The notes beneath the pieces were generated by a model. The model was not told the origin of the DNA, made no database searches, and saw only the letters and a list, made by a program, of their open reading frames with translations. This document shows, in pieces, positions 328 through 19,574 of a DNA stretch of 36,817 nt; position 1 is the first letter of the stretch; each line of letters begins with the position of its first letter. Origin of the DNA: Candidatus Goldiibacteriota bacterium (GTDB lineage: Bacteria > Oederibacteriota > JAAXVQ01); assembly GCA_020052235.1 (NCBI GenBank), contig JAGVPM010000142.1, positions 1 through 36,817 of the forward strand. Direction: 5' to 3'. Made by a program: the position numbers and the translations under genes.

Positions 328-2398
328 CTCGATGGCTACACCTACGATGACGGCCACTTCCACCAGCACTCTGACCATTACCACCGGCACACCGTCGGCA
401 ACAAGCTCGTTTACCTCCACGGCCACCGCCACACCGACTTCCACATCAACGGCTACAGTAACCGCCACCCCCACCAACACCCCGGCGGCGGATGCTTTTA
501 TCCAGGGTAATTTTTCCTTATTAAATCAGACGCAAAATTATGATTACATGGTGATCGCAACTTCGCAGAGCGGGATTCAAACCCTTTACTTGACGATTCC
601 CAACGGGTGGGCGGTACCCTCCACTCCGAGTTCCATGGTACAGGGTGGGCTGGTTTCATTTGCAGGAAATCAGATTGTAGTGAGTTATGCCACGCCTTGG
701 TCCGCTGGTTCGTACGACAGCATCACGTTGACGGCCACGGCACCCGGAACAGGCGGAACGTATTATTGGAATTCCTACTTGAATGACGGAACCTATCAAA
801 CGCGCACGACGGCGTCCAAGAGTCAAGCCGTGGTGGTGACTTCGCCTACGGGCACTTCGACCTTCACGGCTACAGCCACGGCCACTCCCACGATCACGTC
901 GACTTCCACCACGACCGCCACACCGACGGCGACTTCTACCTATACATCCACGGCTGTGTTTACATTTACAATTACGCCGACAGCTACGCCAACCTTTACC
1001 AGCACGGCCAGCTTCACCGCTACCTCTACGCCTACGGAGTCCTCCACCTACACGTTCACGCCGACGAATTCACCCACCATGACGTCCACGCCCTTGAATT
1101 CACCCACCGTAACTCAGACACTGACGAATTCGCCCACATTGACTTCGTCCGTAACGCAAACCGTAACGTTTACGATCACGGCCACGGCTACGATTACTCC
1201 AACCATCACGCCTACGCCCGCCTATCAGTTGATTTTGGTGGTTCCAAACGAATATTTTACGCCCGGGACGCCTCCGGGATATGCGGGAGCCGTGTTGCCT
1301 GCCACGGCGGGCTATCCGGTTTCCATTACCATACGCGCTGTGAATATGAGTACGTTCCAGATGCTGCCGGTGAATGATGTGTTAACCATGAGTTCGTCCG
1401 CCTTGGCGGATCAAATCCGCGATTTGTCGGCGCAGGTTAATTTGATAAACGGCGAGGCCAATGTCACGGTCCGTTTCATGGATCCGGGCACGACGTACCT
1501 GATTTCAGCAGCGCCGCAGACAAATACATTTATCCAAGCGGGCAGTACGCGTCCGATTCCCTGCAATGCGGGCACCTATTCGCAAAATCCTTTTGCTTTG
1601 ATGAATCATGCATCTTTGGCGCCCCTCACGGCCGTTCAAGGCGAACGCCAGCTGGCTATGCTTTTGCTGAATATTACCAATCCCAATGCCGCGGGATCGG
1701 CGGCGTATGAGGTGCGGGGCTTGACCATCACCGTGCAGGACCGCAACGGCCAGGGTATTCCGGCGCAGGATATTTTAGCGTCTCTGGCCATTTGGGATAA
1801 TGCGGCCAACACCGCTTTGACGCAGGTTAATGCCTGGCCTTCGCAGGAAAGGGTCTATGTGCCGTTTACGGCTTTTCAGGTGTTGGTGTATCCTGGGGAG
1901 ACCAGGGTTTTGCGCGTGGTGGTGGATTTGAATCCTGTGGGCACGCGCCCGGAACTCCGTCTGGGCGCCATTGCCGCCGGGGATGTGGATTGCGCGTTCT
2001 TGGACGGGACTTCCATTTTGGTGCGCGCTGCGGCGCCGGATGCATTCCCCATGAGATCGGACACGGTGGCGATTCGTTCGCGCGGGCTGAAAGATTCGTA
2101 TATTAATTATCCCAATCCTTTCGCGGCCGGCCGGCAGGTTACGCAGCTGGAATATTTCCTGGAACAAGACTCAACCGTCACCTTGAAAATTTACTCCATT
2201 GTCGGCGAACCGGTGCGCACATTGGCGGATGCCGAGACTCAGCCGGGCGCTCAAGGACTGCAACGGTATGTATGGGATGGGCGCAATGGAAAGGGCAATG
2301 TGGTGCTCAATGGCGTTTATTTTGCGGTGTTGACCGTCAAGCCGGTTTCGGGCGGCGCAGCGCAGACCGTGGTGCTGAAGCTGGCGGTGGTTAAATGA
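2..2398 (+). CDS. Large secreted/surface protein with Thr-Pro repeats and FlgD-like C-terminal domain (5' end outside window)
   Basis: The reading frame is open from the first bases of the window, so the true start lies upstream; the GTG at 95 is inside the repeat and is not a start. The visible part runs: Thr/Pro/Ala repeats encoded by a 60-bp DNA repeat; an Ig-like beta domain (about 490-840); a second Thr-rich linker (about 841-1220) with TNSPT units; a beta-rich region with no family I recognise (about 1225-2080); and a final domain starting at YINYPNPF that resembles the FlgD Ig-like or type IX sorting-like C-terminal domains (NPF motif, VWDGRNGKG, terminal VLKLAVVK). Such linkers usually space folded domains on the cell surface and may be glycosylated. 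It overlaps the next gene by four bases (ATGA). A surface adhesin or structural role is inference. Confidence 0.8.
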
Positions 2399-2418
2399 GT
2401 TTTAAGACGGAGCGGAGT

Positions 2419-3993
2419 ATGAAGCGTTGGATGAGCATAGCCATAATCGCAGGTGTGGTGGTTTGCCCGGGAATACGCGGCTGGGCAACGGTCAATGATG
2501 CGGGCACGCAAAATCCCTTTGAATTAGGAGCGGGTGCGCGCGCGTTGGCGCTTTCCGGCGCTTATCCTGCCATAGCCGATGATTCCACGGCTTTGTTTTG
2601 GAATCCGGCCGGGTTGGCGCGGGTGGAGCAAACCGAAGTTTCCGCCATGCACATTAATTTGCTCTTTGACACACCGTATGACTACCTTGGAGTTGCGTAT
2701 CCCTTATTGGATTGGGGCACCTTTGCGGTGGGCGCAGTGCGCTTGGCCACGAGCGGAATCATCACCAGAGATGAGAGCAGTTTCCGCACGGGTGAAGGCG
2801 AGGGAAGTTATGATTTGCGTGAATATTTATTTGGGTATGGGCGCGAGTGGTTTAAGGGGTTTAACGGCGGAGCGGTGGTCAAGGTGGATCAGCAGCGCTT
2901 ATTGGGAGACGCGGCCTCCGGCGTGGGGGTGGATTTGGGAGCCCAGTACCACGGCAGGCAGGAGTGGCCCGGGGGATTAGACTGGGAAAAAATGACCATT
3001 GGCATTGACGTGCAAAACGTGTTTGGTTCGCAGCTGCGTTTGGGCGCGGATACGGATGTATTGCCGCTGAATGTGCGCTCGGGATTGGCCTACACCGTGG
3101 ACGTGAAAGACCGGTGGCAGCAAAAAATAATTCTAGCCCTGGGCGCGGATAAGTCGACCTGGAGGGAATGGTGCTGGCGTATGGGGTTGGAGTACCAGGT
3201 GCTGGCAAGCCTGGCCCTGCGCGGCGGTCTCAATGCGTACGGATGGTCGGCGGGCGTTGGGGCGGAGTATGCCGGGGTGGGATTTGACTATGCCTTGAGC
3301 GGGCAGGAATTGGGAGTGACGCACCGGTTCTCGCTGACGTACAGGTTTGGCCCCAATGCCGCGCAACAGCGCGAGGAACGGGAGCGCCGCCGTCAGGAAG
3401 CCATGGACCGTGAAGCCACGGCCCGGGCCGAGGCCACCGTAAAAAAAATCCGCGACGAGTTGACGCAACAGCTGGAAAATAACGAGCTGAAATACAGCCG
3501 GGAGAAACAAGCCTTGCTGGCACAGCATGATAAAAGGGTTTCCAATGCCGTGGCAAAGGAACGGCAGAAATCAACGGAACAAAAAAATCAGCAATTGGCC
3601 CGTGAATATTTTAAAACCCTGCATTACTTCAACGGACTTAAAGATTATATGAATAAAAATTATAAAGACGCCGTGACTGAGTTTGAAACCGTAGCCAAAT
3701 TTGATCCGAAATACCTGGAACTGGCTGTATACTTGGAACGCTCGCGGCAGTTGGCCAAAGGGCAATTTATGGTGATGTCGCCGGAAACCTTGAAATTGTA
3801 TTACCGGGGGATTGATTATTACATGGATAATAAATTCAACGAGGCCATAGGCGCCTGGAAAAAGATTTTAATCACTGAACCCAGCAACCTGATGGTCATG
3901 CGGAATATTGAAGAAGCGGAAAATCGTTTGGTATTGCTGAACAAAACCGAAGGAACAGATCTCGGAAATACCTTGCCGGCCAATAAACCGTAA
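2419..3993 (+). CDS. PorV/PorQ-like outer-membrane barrel protein with coiled-coil and TPR tail
   Basis: I place the start at ATG 2419, preceded by GGAG-rich sequence, because it gives a clean signal peptide (MKRWMSIAIIAGVV...GWA). ATG 2395 in the same frame overlaps the previous stop and would bury the signal. Residues about 25-310 carry the PorV/PorQ/UPF0164 hallmarks GAGARALALSGAYPAIADDS and FWNPAGLA, expected to form an outer-membrane beta barrel. Residues about 315-395 are a charged coiled coil (REERERRRQEAMDRE and similar). Residues about 395-510 contain two or three TPR-like helical hairpins (YKDAVTEFETVAKFDP, FNEAIGAWKKILITEP). In the Bacteroidetes PorV acts as a shuttle of the type IX system. 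Here the directly upstream gene encodes a protein with a sorting-like C-terminal domain, so a role in surface assembly is plausible but inferred. Confidence 0.8.
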   Translation: MKRWMSIAIIAGVVVCPGIRGWATVNDAGTQNPFELGAGARALALSGAYPAIADDSTALFWNPAGLARVEQTEVSAMHINLLFDTPYDYLGVAYPLLDWGTFAVGAVRLATSGIITRDESSFRTGEGEGSYDLREYLFGYGREWFKGFNGGAVVKVDQQRLLGDAASGVGVDLGAQYHGRQEWPGGLDWEKMTIGIDVQNVFGSQLRLGADTDVLPLNVRSGLAYTVDVKDRWQQKIILALGADKSTWREWCWRMGLEYQVLASLALRGGLNAYGWSAGVGAEYAGVGFDYALSGQELGVTHRFSLTYRFGPNAAQQREERERRRQEAMDREATARAEATVKKIRDELTQQLENNELKYSREKQALLAQHDKRVSNAVAKERQKSTEQKNQQLAREYFKTLHYFNGLKDYMNKNYKDAVTEFETVAKFDPKYLELAVYLERSRQLAKGQFMVMSPETLKLYYRGIDYYMDNKFNEAIGAWKKILITEPSNLMVMRNIEEAENRLVLLNKTEGTDLGNTLPANKP

Positions 3994-4069: not shown

Positions 4070-6568
4070 TTGCCGATACTGTTGAATAAATTTTTTAAAC
4101 CCAAGGTGATAAAGCATTTCCAAATAGAAGTGCCGGCGGTGGAACACAGGTTGGGCGAAATCCGCGATTTTATTACCGGGATTGCGGCCAATGCCGGCTT
4201 TTCCCAGCACGAGATCAATAATTTAAAACTTGCGCTGGATGAGGCTTCCTCCAACGTTGTGCGCCACGCCTACAAAGGCATGGAACCGGGACCGATCCGC
4301 TTGGAGGTGGACTGGCGCCCGGGCGAATTGGATATCAGCTTGTTGGACCGCGGGCGCAGTTTTGATTGGAAGGGCAGCAAAACACCCGACTTGAACCGGT
4401 ATGTGGAGATTGGGAAAAAAGGCGGATTAGGTATTTGGTTTATCCGCAAGCTCATGGATGAAACGGACTATAAAGCCACCCCCAAAGGCAATACGCTCCG
4501 GCTAATAAAACGCAGTAAAACCGCCTTGAGTTCCATGCAGGCCGCCAAAGCGGTCAGTTCCTCCGAAGCGGCATTGCCGGCGATAACCTTGCCAATACCG
4601 GCGCCCACAGCCGCGGCTCCGGCCTCTACACAACCAGAAGAAGCTGCTCCGACGGTTCTGCCCCGCCGCTTGAGCGTGAAAGTTAAATTTTTACTTCCGG
4701 TTGTCGGTGTGGCCGCCGTGTTGGTTTTTGGCGTGTTTGCCTATATGTTCCGCAACCAGGATCAGACCGTGCGCGCGGAAATCATGGCCAATGCCGAGGA
4801 AGGCATCCGCCGTTTGGCCAATGATTCGGTGAATTATTTATTCAAACAGGATGATTTGCACTTGGCGGGGTTGGTCAAAACCGCAGTGAAGGTGGATCCC
4901 CGCCTTTCCTACGCATTTGTCGTAAATAATGAAGGCGTGATTTGGGCCCATTCGCAAACCAATAAAATGTTTCAGCACTTCTCGCCGCCGCCCGGCTTTA
5001 AATTTCCCGAACGTCAAAAGGTGTTGGTGCAGAAATACCAAGATCCCGACCAGGGTGCCATGCTTGATTTTTCGTTCCCGGTATGGATGCGGAATATGCA
5101 TATGGGTACCGCGCACTTGGGTATGAAATTGGAATCCATGGAACGCGAAATCCGGACCGGGCGCCGGAATGCCGTGGTTATTTTTATCATCGTGCTCATC
5201 CTGAGCACCCTGGGCGTTTACGTGCTGATGACGTTCCTGATCTCCCCGGTTGAAAAAATCGCGAACGGCATGCTGGCCATCAGCGCAGGGCGGCTGGATC
5301 ACCGCATCACCATCCGCAGCAATGACGAGTTCGGACAGATTGCCAAGATTTTTAATGATATGACCCGGCGGTTTAATGAAGCCCAGGGGCATTTATTGGA
5401 ACAGGAACTCGTTCAGCAGGAAATGCAGGTGGCGCAGGAAATTCAACACACCCTGTTGCCCCGCGAAGTGCCGCAGGTGGAAGGCTACGATGTGGCCAGT
5501 TTATACCGTTCGGCCAAGGAAGTCGGCGGTGATTATTTTGACTTCATGATGGTCGATGACAACATCATGGGCATTGCCGTGGCGGACGTATCCGGCAAGG
5601 GCGTGCCGGGATCTTTGGTTATGACCATGATCCGCACCGCCTTGCGCCTGGAAGCGCGCGGTAACCGTTCCGCCATTGACGTTATGGCCAAGGTTAATGA
5701 CTTTGTCACCCCGGATATGAAAAAAGGCATGTTCGTGACCATGTTCTATATAATTTTAAACGTCCGGCAGCGTGTGATTAATTTTTCCAGCGCGGGGCAT
5801 AATCCCATGATTTTATACCGTGCCGAAACCGACCAGATTTATTATTTGAAACCCCGCGGATTTCCCTTAGGCATCGATTTGCCGGATCCGGCTCTGTTTG
5901 TCAAATCCCTTACGCAGGAAACCGTGCATCTGAAGCAGGGGGATTTGATGCTGGCGTACACCGACGGAATTACCGAAGCCATGAATCCGAAACGGGAACA
6001 ATTCGGAGAACAGCGTTTGATTGATATCATCCGGACGCATCATCAGTTGAGTTCGCAGGAATTTGTGGAAGCGCTTTCGCAGGCCCTGGCTGATTTTACC
6101 CAGGAGTATCCACAAAACGACGATATTACCTGCGTGGTGGTGAAAGAAAAAATGATGGTTGGTGAAGTGCAGGCTAATTTGCGCCGAAAATTATTTTACT
6201 TGATCGAACATGATGGGCTGCCGGTGACTGAAGCCTGTCGGCAACTCAATGTTTCGGCCTCGACCTATTACCGCTTGAAGCGGCAAAAGGAAAAATACGG
6301 TGACAAGAGCTTCTTTGAAACCGATGATTCGCACAAAGCGGCTCCCATGCAGCAAATGTCGCTGGACGAACGGCATCAATTGCTGGTGTGGGTCGTGTCC
6401 AATCCGGATTGGGGTGCCAAACGTTTGGCGGATATTTTGGCCACGCCCGAAGGCGGCCAGATCAAAATGACTGAAAGGCAAGTATCCCAGGAATTGAAGC
6501 GCCTGCATTTGACCACGCGCGCGGAGCGCGAAACTTATGCGGCCAAGAAGAAAGTTGACGGGCATTAA
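4070..6568 (+). CDS. Transmembrane partner-switching regulator: RsbW-like kinase, HAMP, SpoIIE/RsbU phosphatase, C-terminal HTH region
   Basis: TTG start at 4070 with AAGGGAGA 7-8 bases upstream. Residues 15-147 form an HATPase domain of the anti-sigma-factor kinase type (LDEASSNVVRHAYKG N-box at 56-70, D93, GGLGIWF at 118-124). A Pro/Ala linker follows, then TM1 (about 207-227), an extracytoplasmic sensor of about 140 residues, TM2 (about 368-391), HAMP (about 392-446) and a PP2C/SpoIIE phosphatase (about 470-690). Metal-binding Asp positions are visible in GGDYFDF (486-492), ADVSGKG (505-511), TDGITEA (631-637) and NDDITC (683-688). Residues 701-745 form a helix-turn-helix (VTEACRQLNVSASTYYRLKR), and about 765-825 a second helical domain with PDWGA. 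Known relatives phosphorylate and dephosphorylate a STAS protein, which is the next gene. Having both opposing activities plus HTH domains in one chain is unusual. Confidence 0.9.
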   Translation: MPILLNKFFKPKVIKHFQIEVPAVEHRLGEIRDFITGIAANAGFSQHEINNLKLALDEASSNVVRHAYKGMEPGPIRLEVDWRPGELDISLLDRGRSFDWKGSKTPDLNRYVEIGKKGGLGIWFIRKLMDETDYKATPKGNTLRLIKRSKTALSSMQAAKAVSSSEAALPAITLPIPAPTAAAPASTQPEEAAPTVLPRRLSVKVKFLLPVVGVAAVLVFGVFAYMFRNQDQTVRAEIMANAEEGIRRLANDSVNYLFKQDDLHLAGLVKTAVKVDPRLSYAFVVNNEGVIWAHSQTNKMFQHFSPPPGFKFPERQKVLVQKYQDPDQGAMLDFSFPVWMRNMHMGTAHLGMKLESMEREIRTGRRNAVVIFIIVLILSTLGVYVLMTFLISPVEKIANGMLAISAGRLDHRITIRSNDEFGQIAKIFNDMTRRFNEAQGHLLEQELVQQEMQVAQEIQHTLLPREVPQVEGYDVASLYRSAKEVGGDYFDFMMVDDNIMGIAVADVSGKGVPGSLVMTMIRTALRLEARGNRSAIDVMAKVNDFVTPDMKKGMFVTMFYIILNVRQRVINFSSAGHNPMILYRAETDQIYYLKPRGFPLGIDLPDPALFVKSLTQETVHLKQGDLMLAYTDGITEAMNPKREQFGEQRLIDIIRTHHQLSSQEFVEALSQALADFTQEYPQNDDITCVVVKEKMMVGEVQANLRRKLFYLIEHDGLPVTEACRQLNVSASTYYRLKRQKEKYGDKSFFETDDSHKAAPMQQMSLDERHQLLVWVVSNPDWGAKRLADILATPEGGQIKMTERQVSQELKRLHLTTRAERETYAAKKKVDGH

Positions 6569-6613
6569 AAAGGTATGTTACCATCGCGATAAGTCATAAG
6601 GGGGCCTAACTCT

Positions 6614-7522
6614 ATGGACGGCATTCAAATTCAGGTTGAACGCGCTGAAGCCAATTCCGAAATTTCCGTTATCATGATCAACGGTTATATTGATACCACC
6701 ACCTCCAGCGAATTGGAACGCGTGATTCAAAATCTCCTGCGTGAACAAAGATATAAGATTATCGTGGATTTGTCGGGCGTGGATTATATCAGTTCAGCCG
6801 GCTGGGGTATTTTTATCTCTGAAATTAAAAATCTTCGCAGCCATCGCGGCGATTTGAAATTGGCCAATATGTCTCCCAATGTGAGCGAAGTGTATGAATT
6901 GCTGGAGTTTGCCACTATTTTAACGTCCGCCCCCAGTGTTCCCGACGCAGTGAAAATGTTTGATGGCGCTGCGGCTGAAATGGGAATGCCGCCGGTGAAA
7001 AAGCCGCTGGCGGGTCAACCGGCAGTTGCCACAGCGGCAACGGCTGCCCCCAAAGCAGCTGTTCCGCCTAAACCGCCAACCCCAACCGCGATAAACCGTC
7101 CTGCGGTGCCGCCTCCTGCAGGCAAAGTTCGTCCGACAACGGCCAATTCTGCAGCGAAAACATCACAGGAAGTCCCTGCGTCATCGGTGAAAATTCCAGC
7201 TCCGGTTCCGGCTCCAACTCCAATTTCGGCTCCATCTTCGGCTCCGGTTCCAGTATCAACTCCAGCTCCAGCTCCGGTTTCAACTCCGGCTCAGGAATCC
7301 GCGCCATTGACTTCAAAACCAACAGGGTTAGTCCCTTTAATTGATAGAATTCACGAGGTCGTGAAAGCGCACCCTGACTGGGGGGCGTGGAAAATGAAAG
7401 GGGAACTCAACCGGAGCCGCGGCAACCAACCTAAAGTAAGTTGGGGTGAAGTAAGGGCTGAATTAAAATTCAGCGGGTTGAAAACCAAGGAACAACGGTA
7501 TAACTTTTCGCGCAGCCGTTAA
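6614..7522 (+). CDS. STAS-domain anti-sigma-factor antagonist with C-terminal PDWGA helical domain
   Basis: ATG at 6614 with AAGGGGG at 6598-6604. Residues 1-115 are a STAS domain of the SpoIIAA/RsbV type, with candidate phospho-acceptor serines S60/S61 in DYISSAGWG. Residues about 120-230 are an Ala/Pro/Val-rich low-complexity linker. Residues about 232-300 form a helical domain (IHEVVKAHPDWGAWKMKGEL...EVRAELKFSGLKTKEQR) that aligns without gaps to the end of the upstream kinase/phosphatase. STAS antagonists are normally bare domains of about 100-120 residues, so the linker plus extra domain is an addition. The upstream protein should set the phosphorylation state of this one. Its binding target is not encoded nearby: no sigma factor is visible in the window. 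Confidence 0.88.
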   Translation: MDGIQIQVERAEANSEISVIMINGYIDTTTSSELERVIQNLLREQRYKIIVDLSGVDYISSAGWGIFISEIKNLRSHRGDLKLANMSPNVSEVYELLEFATILTSAPSVPDAVKMFDGAAAEMGMPPVKKPLAGQPAVATAATAAPKAAVPPKPPTPTAINRPAVPPPAGKVRPTTANSAAKTSQEVPASSVKIPAPVPAPTPISAPSSAPVPVSTPAPAPVSTPAQESAPLTSKPTGLVPLIDRIHEVVKAHPDWGAWKMKGELNRSRGNQPKVSWGEVRAELKFSGLKTKEQRYNFSRSR

Positions 7523-7551: not shown

Positions 7552-8667
7552 GTGAGCAGCTTCAGTTTTTCCACCACCATTCACGGTGCGGACCGGGATT
7601 ATACGGTTAAGACCATGAATTTCGATTCAATCCGGCGCGTGGTCATCAATTTAAGCGAACATGACCGCGTCATGAATACCCGTGAATTTTCCTATGATGC
7701 CAATTTGAACGATGATGAACTTATGGGACTGGTGAAGCGGAAACATGAAGAACGCGTGGAAAATCTTCAGGAACTTTTAAAGATTTCAGGCAAGTTGGAA
7801 CAAAAAAATGATCCGGACGCCAATCATAAATTGGGTTTGGTATTTTTAAATAACGGCCTGGGGCGGGAAGCGGCGGTTGAATTTGAACGTTCGTTGACCC
7901 AAGCACCCAATCAAGCTCCGATTTTAAATCATTTGGGCCAGGCCTATCTTCAGGAAGAACGGATGTTGGATGCGGAAAAAATTTTTCGCCAGGCGGTGGA
8001 GCTTAAACCGGAATACCCTGATTTGCATAATTACCTCGGTCTGGCGTTATTAAAATCCGGAAATTATACGGAAGCGCTTGCGGAATTTCAAAAGGCATTG
8101 TCAATTCATGCCGGGTATGCCGAGGCCCATTTTAACTACGGATTGTGCATCCTGTCTCAGGCGATTGCCGACGGAACACTGGGCGACGCGGCCAAGGTGG
8201 ATATGTTGGCGCACATCAGCCGTGCGGTGGAATTGAACGCGTATTATAATAATGAATACTATAAAATGGCCCAAGGCCACCTGGCGAAAAATCAATGGGC
8301 CGAAAGCCGCCAGGCATTGATTGAGGCCAAGACTTCCGTGTCCGCGCAAACCGGAAGTGAAATTTTTCATGAATTTTATTTGCGCCTGAAGTACGGCGAT
8401 GAAGGCGTGGACCGCCAGGCCACCGAACGTTATATTTTGCGCTTGGAGGAAATACTCGATAAAAATCCGCAATTCGTCGATGTCCATAACGACCTGGGCG
8501 TTGCCTACCTTACACAATGCCGTTTCCTGTTCAATCGCGCCATCAATGAGTTCAAACGCGCCCTTACTTTGAATGCCAATTATTCCAAAGCTCAGAAAAA
8601 TCTTAAGCTGGCCGAAAATGAAGGTAAAGGCTTTTTGATTCTTTTACGGGCCATTCTATATTTTTAA
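7552..8667 (+). CDS. TPR-repeat protein of the partner-switching operon
   Basis: GTG start at 7552 follows a good AAAGGAGA site, 29 bases after the STAS gene, so it is probably co-transcribed. There is no signal peptide, which indicates a cytoplasmic protein. The first 85 residues (HGADRDYTVKTMNFD..., then a charged helix) are not a family I recognise. From about residue 88 there are at least three canonical TPRs (ANHKLGLVFLNNGLGREAAV, APILNHLGQAYLQEERMLDA, LHNYLGLALLKSGNYTEALA) and further degenerate ones, including VHNDLGVAYLTQCRFLFNRA near the end. It may scaffold or be regulated by the STAS protein; that is inferred only from gene order. Confidence 0.85.
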   Translation: MSSFSFSTTIHGADRDYTVKTMNFDSIRRVVINLSEHDRVMNTREFSYDANLNDDELMGLVKRKHEERVENLQELLKISGKLEQKNDPDANHKLGLVFLNNGLGREAAVEFERSLTQAPNQAPILNHLGQAYLQEERMLDAEKIFRQAVELKPEYPDLHNYLGLALLKSGNYTEALAEFQKALSIHAGYAEAHFNYGLCILSQAIADGTLGDAAKVDMLAHISRAVELNAYYNNEYYKMAQGHLAKNQWAESRQALIEAKTSVSAQTGSEIFHEFYLRLKYGDEGVDRQATERYILRLEEILDKNPQFVDVHNDLGVAYLTQCRFLFNRAINEFKRALTLNANYSKAQKNLKLAENEGKGFLILLRAILYF

Positions 8668-17250: not shown

Positions 17251-17301
17251 ACTTTATAAAGTAATGCACATATTGACAAACTTTATAAAGTTGTGTATGT
17301 T
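17251..17301 (+). promoter_or_regulatory. Promoter and twin palindromic operator of the HTH-Fic gene
   Basis: Two identical 12-base palindromes ACTTTATAAAGT lie at 17251-17262 and 17280-17291 (29 bases start to start). Between and around them, TTGACA (17273-17278), a 17-base spacer and TATGTT (17296-17301) make a promoter whose predicted start coincides with the ATG at 17308. The second palindrome fills the spacer, so a bound repressor would block the promoter. The stretch 17086-17250 before it shows only a short hairpin (17117-17130). Confidence 0.75.
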
Positions 17302-17307
17302 TGCCGT

Positions 17308-18225
17308 ATGACTATAAAGGAACAATTATCCCTGATTTCTAAGGTGTCGGGCAAGACGCAGGAGAAACTTGCGGTTGAGTTGAAAGTTTCCTTCCCGACG
17401 CTTAACAGTTGGATCAACGGCCGGTCTGAGCCGCGCGCTGATGCCCGGCAGCGCATACAGGAACTGTATAGCCGGCTCACAGGGCGGAATGTTGTTCCTG
17501 AAACTGAGCTTGAAGGAAAAAAACGCGCCATACTGCACACTGGCAAACAGTATCTGAATTTGGTTAAGCTGCTGCATACCCGTAAAGACCTGTATGACCA
17601 ATTTCTTTTGTCTCTGACCTATAATACCAACCGTATTGAAGGCAGCACGCTGACTGAGCCGGAAACTGCGGCGATTTTGTTTCAGAACTCCGCTTTGCCT
17701 GATAAGTCCATTATCGAGCACATGGAAGTTAAAAATCATCAGGCGGCATTCTCCTTGATGATGCAGTCTGCTTCCGCAGGGGAACCAATCACGGAAGAAT
17801 TTGTGCTTAAGCTCCATGCGAAATTGATGAATGGCATTAAAGAAGATGCTGGAATGTATCGCAGGCATGCTGTGCGTATCGCGGGTGCGCATGTGCCAAC
17901 TGCGAATTATATGAAACTCAGCGCACTTATGCCGGAACTGCTGGAGACTATCCGGAAAGGCGATAAAGATATCATTGGTTTTGCAGCGCGCATACATAGC
18001 CGTTTTGAACAGATACATCCATTCTCCGATGGCAATGGACGGGTGGGGCGTTTGTTGTTGTGGGCTATGTTGTTGCAGAAGAATATCGCGCCTGCCATCA
18101 TTGCTCAAGAGAACCGGCGGTACTATATTATGTATTTGAACCAATCGCAATTGCAGGATGATTACAGCCGGTTGGAAGATTTTGTTTGTGACGGGATTTT
18201 GGATGGGTACGCACTGTTGCAGTAA
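17308..18225 (+). CDS. HTH-Fic family protein (putative AMP transferase)
   Basis: ATG 17308 is chosen because the promoter places the transcription start there; GTG 17293 is the only upstream option and would fall in the promoter. Residues 1-55 form an XRE-like helix-turn-helix (KTQEKLAVELKVSFPTLNSWI). From about residue 85 this is a Fic protein. The inhibitory motif TNRIEG (S/TxxxEG) lies near residue 107, before the core. The catalytic motif HPFSDGNGRVGR, near residue 237, is complete. Fic enzymes usually transfer AMP to a hydroxyl of a target protein, and the N-terminal glutamate holds them inactive (class II). The HTH probably binds the adjacent palindromes and represses its own gene. Confidence 0.92.
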   Translation: MTIKEQLSLISKVSGKTQEKLAVELKVSFPTLNSWINGRSEPRADARQRIQELYSRLTGRNVVPETELEGKKRAILHTGKQYLNLVKLLHTRKDLYDQFLLSLTYNTNRIEGSTLTEPETAAILFQNSALPDKSIIEHMEVKNHQAAFSLMMQSASAGEPITEEFVLKLHAKLMNGIKEDAGMYRRHAVRIAGAHVPTANYMKLSALMPELLETIRKGDKDIIGFAARIHSRFEQIHPFSDGNGRVGRLLLWAMLLQKNIAPAIIAQENRRYYIMYLNQSQLQDDYSRLEDFVCDGILDGYALLQ

Positions 18226-18227
18226 AT

Positions 18228-18255
18228 GTAGGGAACAGGCATGCCTGTTCCCTAC
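18228..18255. repeat. GTAGGG-type palindromic repeat, perfect 28-bp copy
   Basis: The 28 bases from GTAGGGAACAGGCA to its exact reverse complement form a perfect palindrome. It occupies nearly all of the short gap between the convergent Fic and thiF-thiE genes, so it may serve as a bidirectional transcript end. Confidence 0.9.
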
Positions 18256-18263
18256 GGAAACAA

Positions 18264-19574
18264 TCAATCCTCTGCGTTCTCTGCGCCTCTGCGGTGTGTG
18301 CGGTGTGGCTGTTTACGAATTATGCTCTTCAGCCGCATAACTTTTTCAGCAATATCCTCCGCTCCCACAATTTCCGTAACCAAAGCCACGCAAGTCGCTC
18401 CATGCCGCACCACATCCGCGAGGTTGTGCTCCTTAATCCCACCAATGGCCACGAAGGGAATGGTTGCATTTTTCCGCGCATAGTCGAGGTACTCCAATCC
18501 CACGGCCGCGCAAACGTTGACCTTAGTTTGCGTTGTATACAGCGGCCCCACGCCAATATAATCCGCACCGCGTTTGATGGCAGCTTGTAGTTGCGCTGGT
18601 GAGTGCGTGGAGAGGCCGATGATTTTTTCATGTCCTAGGATGGCCCGGACGGATTCTATGGGCAGATCGTCTTGGCCAATATGCACGCCGTCGGCATCCA
18701 CCAGTTGGGCAATGGAGATGTCGTCGTTGATAATGAACGCGGCGTTAAACTTGCGAGTCAGTGCGCGCAAGGTGCGGCACTCAGCCAGTTTTTCCTTCAA
18801 TGATTTTTCCTTTTCGCGGTATTGAATAATTTTAATACCGGCCTGAAGCATTTGTGCGACCACATCTTCGTTGGAACGGCCTAAAGAATATTTCTCAGCA
18901 GTGATGCCGTACAGGTCTGTGGCCAGGAGAGCGGCTTTGGCAGCCAGGGAATGCGGTTTTCGATAGTCGCCTTCCAAGACCCAGGCTAAAACAATATCCG
19001 CTTGCTTGGCAGCCGCGACATTCACGCGCGGCGCCATGGGCGGGATATTGGGAGCCACGCCGGTGGTGAGATCGCCCACGAGGAAAAAGTTTTTAGCCGG
19101 GCGCTGGATGCGGATGCTGTCCGCGTCGCCCCACCCGGCCAAGCCGGAGGCTGAGACCAGCAGTTTATCCGAGTGCCAGTAGGTTTCGGCCAGCATCTTT
19201 TTTTCTGCCACTGTATCAAATGCCTCTACCACTACGGTGCAGGTTTCGAAAATGGCTTTGAGATTTTTGGGGTCCAGGCGCAGGGTGTGGGTCCGGATAT
19301 CCAAATCCGGATTAATGGCCAGCAAGTTGGTCTTGAGAGTATCTGCTTTGGGCAGGCCGAGTTGGTGCAGAAAATAAAATTGCCGGTTTAAATTGGACGC
19401 ATCGATCACATCAAAATCAACCAGCACAAAATGCTTGAAACCGGAACGCGCCAGGAATAAAGCACAGTTGGAACCTAAACCACCGGCTCCGGCTACGCCG
19501 ATCCGGGCAGCTTGGATTTTTTGAAACGTTTTCTCACCCATTCGTTCCAACAGGGATTGCTCAAAAGGATTCAT
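18264..19574 (-). CDS. thiFE: ThiF-ThiE fusion: ThiS adenylyltransferase plus thiamine phosphate synthase
   Basis: The start is ATG 19574 with GGAG eight bases upstream; GTG 19583 abuts that site. Residues about 1-205 are a ThiF/HesA-type E1-like domain (RIGVAGAGGLGSN nucleotide loop, LVDFDVIDASNLNRQFYF, GLPKADTLK). It activates the C-terminal glycine of ThiS with ATP. I see no cysteine in the segment after TTGVAPNIPPMAPR, as in short ThiF forms. Residues about 225-425 are ThiE (IIQYREKEKS, FIINDD, ADGVHIGQDDLP, GLSTHSPAQL, DYIGVGPLYTTQTK). It joins the thiazole and pyrimidine halves into thiamine phosphate. The final residues derive from a dispersed repeat. The fusion places an early and the joining step in one chain. 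Confidence 0.93.
   Translation of the reverse strand: MNPFEQSLLERMGEKTFQKIQAARIGVAGAGGLGSNCALFLARSGFKHFVLVDFDVIDASNLNRQFYFLHQLGLPKADTLKTNLLAINPDLDIRTHTLRLDPKNLKAIFETCTVVVEAFDTVAEKKMLAETYWHSDKLLVSASGLAGWGDADSIRIQRPAKNFFLVGDLTTGVAPNIPPMAPRVNVAAAKQADIVLAWVLEGDYRKPHSLAAKAALLATDLYGITAEKYSLGRSNEDVVAQMLQAGIKIIQYREKEKSLKEKLAECRTLRALTRKFNAAFIINDDISIAQLVDADGVHIGQDDLPIESVRAILGHEKIIGLSTHSPAQLQAAIKRGADYIGVGPLYTTQTKVNVCAAVGLEYLDYARKNATIPFVAIGGIKEHNLADVVRHGATCVALVTEIVGAEDIAEKVMRLKSIIRKQPHRTHRRGAENAED
18269..18296 (-). repeat. CCGCAGAGGCGC-type dispersed repeat forming the end of the ThiF-ThiE frame
   Basis: Reading on the minus strand, CACCGCAGAGGCGCAGAG followed by AACGCAGAGG is the same sequence type as the inverted repeat at 22140-22230. 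It encodes the last residues (HRRGAENAED) of the thiF-thiE product, so the repeat has supplied the stop codon context of that gene. Confidence 0.8.

Follow-up and report, generated by a model that had tools for sequence, protein, structure and literature searches.

Why would a signalling enzyme and the protein on which it presumably acts end in the same domain? This question is raised by two adjoining genes, here called A and B, in a stretch of DNA of 36,817 nucleotides (the window), where a predicted kinase/phosphatase is followed by a STAS protein. The window belongs to a 3.17 Mb genome of candidate division FCPU426, which is 99.3% complete. A and B represent partner switching in a new form, which is far more widespread than could be seen from the window alone.

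Domain organization and gene neighbourhood of A and B

Gene A (4070..6568, + strand) comprises an open reading frame of 832 aa and encodes a membrane sensor kinase/phosphatase with a tandem HTH tail. Its domain order is HATPase_c_2, a transmembrane/sCache/transmembrane unit, HAMP, a SpoIIE-type PP2C phosphatase and two HTH domains, all located on the + strand. The N-terminal HATPase_c_2 domain (PF13581, residues 23-147, 4136..4510, Pfam E 2.9e-26) is a predicted serine kinase of the RsbW/SpoIIAB type with intact ATP motifs (EASSNVVRHAY and GGLG). A periplasmic sCache_3_2 sensor (residues 242-363, 4793..5158, Pfam E 1.3e-10) is enclosed by hydrophobic segments around residues 200-230 and 363-395, and is followed by the HAMP domain (residues 386-434, 5225..5371, Pfam E 3.9e-12) and by the SpoIIE-type PP2C serine phosphatase (residues 498-692, 5561..6145, Pfam E 1.7e-47), in which the metal-site motifs are intact. 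No receiver domain was found by a Pfam scan of A, which has the sCache/HAMP sensor in its place. The first HTH of the tail (about residues 697-752, 6158..6325), recognized from HTH_23 and from predicted helices at tail residues 2-18, 23-30 and 34-52, is absent from B. The second HTH, which contains the PDWGA motif (residues 760-828, 6347..6553), is homologous to the tail of B based on alignment, profiles and predicted fold. In a Pfam scan of the A tail alone, HTH_23 was matched with 26.9 bits (cut-off 24.6), whereas the match to HTH_32 remained below the cut-off (22.0 versus 33.7 bits).

Gene B (6614..7522, + strand, 302 aa) encodes a STAS domain (residues 11-112, 6644..6949, Pfam E 2.4e-17), a Pro/Ala-rich linker that differs between relatives (6965..7330) and a C-terminal HTH tail with a pI of 10.4 (residues 240-302, 7331..7519), which was identified by profiles and predicted fold. 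With the added linker and tail, B is not a single-domain STAS protein. The STAS motif YISSAGWG is invariant in all seven aligned relatives, and we take S61 in this motif as the putative phosphoserine by analogy with S58 of SpoIIAA. Scanned alone, the B tail passed no Pfam cut-off. The B tails of all 18 proteins analysed are strongly basic, with pI values of 9.8-11.2, and are attached to an acidic STAS domain; the pI values of A tails are 9.2-10.4, with the A tail of the window being weakly basic (+4).

In the order of the window, tailed A adjoins tailed B in six genomes (G000, G002, G004-G007). The genes are split between two contigs in G003, and B is cut off by a contig end in G001. The conserved gene order is PorV-TPR, A, B, TPR and acetate kinase. 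The conserved upstream neighbour of A is a PorV-like outer-membrane/TPR protein (2395..3993, + strand), which occupies the same place in a Zixiibacteriota locus (L131), and B is followed by a conserved TPR protein (7552..8667, + strand) with a relative in the same locus (E 3e-32). Elsewhere in the window, the product of the gene at 95-2398 begins with long Thr/Pro-rich TPT repeats and ends in a FlgD-Ig-like region, a layout that recalls surface proteins secreted by the FCB group, and a Fic/DOC gene (17293-18225, + strand) lies opposite an almost equally long open frame (17326-18267, - strand).

Homology of the two tails

The initial annotation aligned the last 60 or so residues of the two proteins without gaps. 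Around PDWGA (residue 779 in A, residue 254 in B) this alignment holds, but a local alignment places a three-residue gap before the motif. The listed shared positions coincide (P-D-W-G-A, L, G, Q, K, V, E-L-K, L, T and R), except for a proposed VV pair, of which a single V lines up. The tails of the window proteins are 34-36% identical, and their BLOSUM62 local score of 77 compares with a mean of 25 (SD 4.5) and a maximum of 49 for 5000 shuffles. Profile-profile alignment of 11 A tails with 7 B tails (hhalign) gave a probability of 96.9% and an E value of 2e-10 over 58 columns. With the window left out, a profile from 24 other A tails retrieved the B protein of the window (E 2e-14), and a profile from 28 other B tails retrieved its A protein (E 1e-11). 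The shuffles and the reciprocal profiles rule out a chance similarity.

AlphaFold2 models of the tails have four helices in common with equal spacing (offset 62), located at residues 69-81, 87-94, 106-115 and 121-134 in the second half of the A tail (mean pLDDT 83), and at residues 9-19, 25-34, 44-53 and 59-67 in the B tail (mean pLDDT 92). The A and B tails are members of one domain family, and their homology is firm. The proposed sharing of a tail by enzyme and substrate is borne out with one modification: A has two HTH domains, and B has the second only.

Searching the window genome with the B tail at E ≤ 10 identified two places only, the tails of A and B. This genome encodes seven STAS proteins, and B alone has a long frame, the other six being 123-148 aa long. 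It also encodes a stand-alone HATPase_c_2 protein of 167 aa. At another site (G000:C2:15490-17116), a STAS gene is located about 1 kb before a gene for a 421-aa HATPase_c_2 protein, possibly a separate partner-switching system without tails.

Relationship to transposases

Resemblance of the PDWGA domain to the HTH in front of transposase/integrase cores had been noted from the motif, and the profile searches agreed with it. The A-tail profile matched rve transposases across both HTHs with the same spacing (E values down to 6e-20 per genome). It picked up multicopy IS481-type and other transposases, and the rve domain was present in all three that were examined with Pfam. A profile built from three transposases alone retrieved both window tails, weakly. 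In Pfam, sequences from the A-tail alignment hit HTH_28, HTH_23, HTH_Tnp_1, HTH_29 and HTH_32; for the majority of B tails there is a weak match to HTH_21. Two matches (G009:C7, locus L069, and G054, locus L018) were transposases, not signalling proteins, and were set aside.

Judged from these profiles, the tail is a homologue of the N-terminal DNA-binding region of transposases, with both halves present in A and the second half in B. The rve integrase core was absent from both proteins in a Pfam scan, so the tails appear to be a captured domain and not a transposase. The N-terminal tandem HTH of IS481/IS3-type (rve) transposases (HTH_28/HTH_23 plus HTH_32/HTH_21) is similar to the whole A tail in both HTHs and in their spacing. 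In contrast to these transposases, A and B have no integrase core, and the A tail is fused to a signalling enzyme, the second half alone to a STAS protein. Foldseek searches with both tails gave no significant match, so the first-ranked neighbours serve as a hint only: for B these were Pax paired domains and for A it was TnsB, in each case in structures determined with DNA. A sequence search of the PDB with both tail alignments returned nothing meaningful.

Occurrence and age of the tailed proteins

Beyond FCPU426, several families in which a tailed kinase adjoins a tailed STAS protein were detected with a B-tail profile, and overall the arrangement recurs in at least four phyla. This pairing was found in FCPU426, Zixiibacteriota, a Calditrichota-like phylum (that of G117, provisionally assigned to Calditrichota), the phylum of G364 and the small phylum of G317. 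The STAS-tail profile matched 40 of 40 genomes in the G117 phylum, 81 of 82 in the G364 phylum, two of four in the G317 phylum, and 54 of 60 in the phylum of G340, which was taken as Zixiibacteriota. Three matches per genome, corresponding to two tailed STAS proteins and one kinase, are the commonest pattern in the G117 and G364 phyla. Weak matches in three genomes (G201, G330 and G380; loci L113-L115) were rejected, since on reading they were neither STAS nor kinase proteins.

In a tree of 57 tails, the A tails form one clade (support 96/93) and the B tails another (92/82), with the transposases outside; the tree is built on 70 columns, which are few, and the support for the B clade is moderate. 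The two clades differ in their conserved positions. Because the A and B tails each form their own clade across phyla, the duplication of the tail is old as judged from the tree. A transposase DNA-binding domain would have been recruited by both partners of a single signalling pathway prior to the divergence of several phyla. Among members of the window's order, conservation is 66-69% for the B tail and lower, 49-59%, for the A tail.

The two tails also occur separately. In the FCPU426 families f8 and f11, the kinase keeps its tail and the adjoining STAS protein is tailless. Other FCPU426 families (f7, f10, f13, f14 and f16; loci L048-L058) have a tailed kinase with no adjacent STAS gene, followed by histidine-biosynthesis-like genes, which are likely an operon. 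In Zixiibacteriota (L127-L133, L139 and several of L147-L162), the adjoining kinase has the kinase, sensor and PP2C domains without a tail, and the STAS tail is kept; the whole tailless kinases that were examined end at 655-695 aa, just past PP2C. With STAS-only tails in Zixiibacteriota and kinase-only tails in f8 and f11, neither tail seems to need the other, which argues for two DNA-binding domains rather than for an obligatory tail-tail lock. The tailless STAS proteins of FCPU426 families also show that some lineages can do without the STAS tail, and this counts against a role of B as a DNA regulator.

Several variant architectures were observed. In a 379-aa STAS protein (L134:5677-6816, - strand), the HTH tail domain is present twice, with a charged and probably coiled segment in between. 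Behind the HTH tail, two kinases of the family (L102:7292-10810 and L111:1733-5626) continue into a long acidic region and TPR-like repeats at the C-terminus; in the window, the A/B pair has TPR genes on either side.

Adenine runs at the STAS-tail junction

In 14 Zixiibacteriota loci (L127-L130, L132 and L147-L155), 9-11 consecutive A directly follow the STAS domain, its frame stops shortly afterwards, and the tail is encoded in the -1 frame (13 loci) or in the +1 frame (L155). Seven further loci of this phylum (L131, L156-L160 and L162) have an A10 run at the equivalent position, and here the tail is in frame. Across the 82.5 kb of the 14 split loci there are 14 runs of at least nine A/T, one per locus and always at the STAS-tail junction. 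Many bacteria select against slippage at a run length of nine A, and in Thermus thermophilus dnaX and in IS elements runs of about this length give rise to two protein products by transcriptional slippage (PMC1088944). The location of the runs at the junction and these functional precedents suggest that tailed and tailless STAS proteins may be produced from one gene by programmed slippage in Zixiibacteriota. A less probable explanation of the split frames is a homopolymer error in the assemblies. The Zixiibacteriota runs resemble those of dnaX and IS elements in their length of about nine, but their effect would be to add or omit the DNA-binding-type tail on a STAS protein. The window has no such run.

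Polysaccharide genes near tailed STAS genes

In the inspected loci of the G117 and G364 phyla, the second tailed STAS gene is located directly upstream of Poly_export and Wzc-like (GNVR/AAA_31) genes; this context was identified by Pfam in L103, L104, L108 and L141, and by similar gene order in L143. In the Zixiibacteriota locus L131, the gene order is PorV-TPR, kinase, STAS, GGDEF, Poly_export/SLBB and TPR. Tailed STAS genes are found beside polysaccharide-export genes in three phyla, and these neighbours in the relatives point to cell-surface polysaccharide as a putative target. A scan of the present window detected no polysaccharide gene.

Proposed function and alternative explanations

We propose that A and B would form a partner-switching pair with a DNA-binding STAS protein as the output. 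The sCache/HAMP sensor of A would set the balance between the RsbW-like kinase and the PP2C phosphatase acting on Ser61 of B, and B would combine a phosphorylation switch, a flexible linker and a single transposase-type HTH on DNA. Phosphorylation of B would decide whether it is bound by the kinase domain of A or free to act on DNA, and the tandem HTH of A would hold the enzyme and DNA, or the enzyme and B, at the same sites. We infer here the kinase and phosphatase reactions, the binding to DNA and the targets. The initial annotation had suggested that the common domain docks the two proteins together or lets both bind the same DNA, replacing the sigma-factor output. DNA binding by both proteins is the better-supported half of this proposal, based on the transposase homology, the basic tails and the non-significant Pax and TnsB neighbours, and we infer the replacement of the sigma-factor output as well. 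We lean towards the reading in which both tails bind DNA and B is a phosphorylation-controlled DNA-binding regulator, although several observations count against it: the conserved positions of the B tail include aromatic residues (GWW/GWF), which are unusual for a recognition helix, no Pfam cut-off is reached by the B tail on its own, the PDB gave no significant match, the basic character of the A tail in the window is weak, and the pair in the window has no polysaccharide gene next to it. The shared transposase-type tails and the recurrence of the A/B pairing across phyla suggest a switch acting on DNA directly, not via a sigma factor.

Alternatively, the transposase-type domain might have been reused for protein-protein contact, with the A and B tails binding each other or a common third protein. 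Such a docking tag would let the kinase/phosphatase find its own STAS protein among the many in the cell, and it would fit the matching presence of the tail on the enzyme and the adjoining substrate in most loci, its restriction to the one of seven STAS proteins in the window genome that lies beside the tailed kinase, and the presence of one tailed kinase and two tailed STAS proteins per genome in two phyla. However, each tail occurs without the other beside the same partner, the STAS tail next to many Zixiibacteriota kinases that end after PP2C and the kinase tail next to the tailless STAS proteins of f8 and f11, and this weakens the docking explanation. In addition, the A and B tails belong to separate clades with different conserved positions, and they are basic on both sides. 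We therefore consider docking rather unlikely, and obligatory tail-to-tail docking is disfavoured.

A classical sigma switch, in which an anti-sigma kinase is still relieved by the STAS domain and the role of the tails is limited to modulating or localizing the complex, is consistent with the complete RsbU/V/W-type domain set and with the stand-alone 167-aa HATPase_c_2 protein of the window genome. Nevertheless, it appears quite improbable, since no sigma-factor gene was found in a Pfam scan of the window ORFs, and a STAS tail that is conserved universally throughout whole phyla is likely to be central. Finally, a recent local duplication or gene conversion in the window genome, producing shared tails without specific function, would agree with adjoining genes whose tails are about one-third identical, but it is hardly credible, being contradicted by the separate A and B clades across phyla, by the distribution of the tails and by the better conservation of the B tail within the order.

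Returning to a switch that acts on DNA, A and B may, more tentatively, exemplify a widespread class of partner-switching systems in which the STAS protein is a phosphorylation-controlled DNA-binding regulator and a transposase-derived tail is common to enzyme and substrate. Such systems would control surface polysaccharide and would be tuned by slippage in some phyla.

Comparison with known partner-switching systems

The RsbU/RsbV/RsbW and SpoIIE/SpoIIAA/SpoIIAB systems of Bacillus have a separate kinase and phosphatase, a single-domain STAS protein and a sigma-factor output. A and B are similar to them in having a kinase, a PP2C phosphatase and a STAS domain with a conserved Ser, but we know of no HTH tails on any of these Bacillus proteins. 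Searches of open-access literature yielded no account of STAS or PP2C proteins ending in tails of this kind.

The closest characterized system to A and B is SypE/SypA of Vibrio fischeri, in which one protein, SypE, has both serine kinase and phosphatase activities acting on one Ser of the STAS protein SypA (PMC4517449, PMC8256260). The two proteins control the syp polysaccharide locus; how SypA works is recorded as unknown, with no known sigma-factor output (PMC4517449). Based on architecture and adjacency, A is likewise a predicted fusion of kinase and phosphatase adjoining its putative STAS partner B. However, SypE is a response regulator under a phosphorelay, whereas A has an sCache/HAMP membrane sensor instead, and SypA is a single STAS domain, with no HTH tail described on either SypE or SypA. 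The polysaccharide linkage of SypE/SypA is not seen in the window, but it is matched in the relatives of A and B from three phyla. For SypA and other STAS proteins that lack a sigma-factor partner, no known mechanism has been recorded. The tailed STAS protein, universal or nearly so in two phyla, carries an apparent DNA-binding output of its own, and thus the question of mechanism becomes a simple question of binding.
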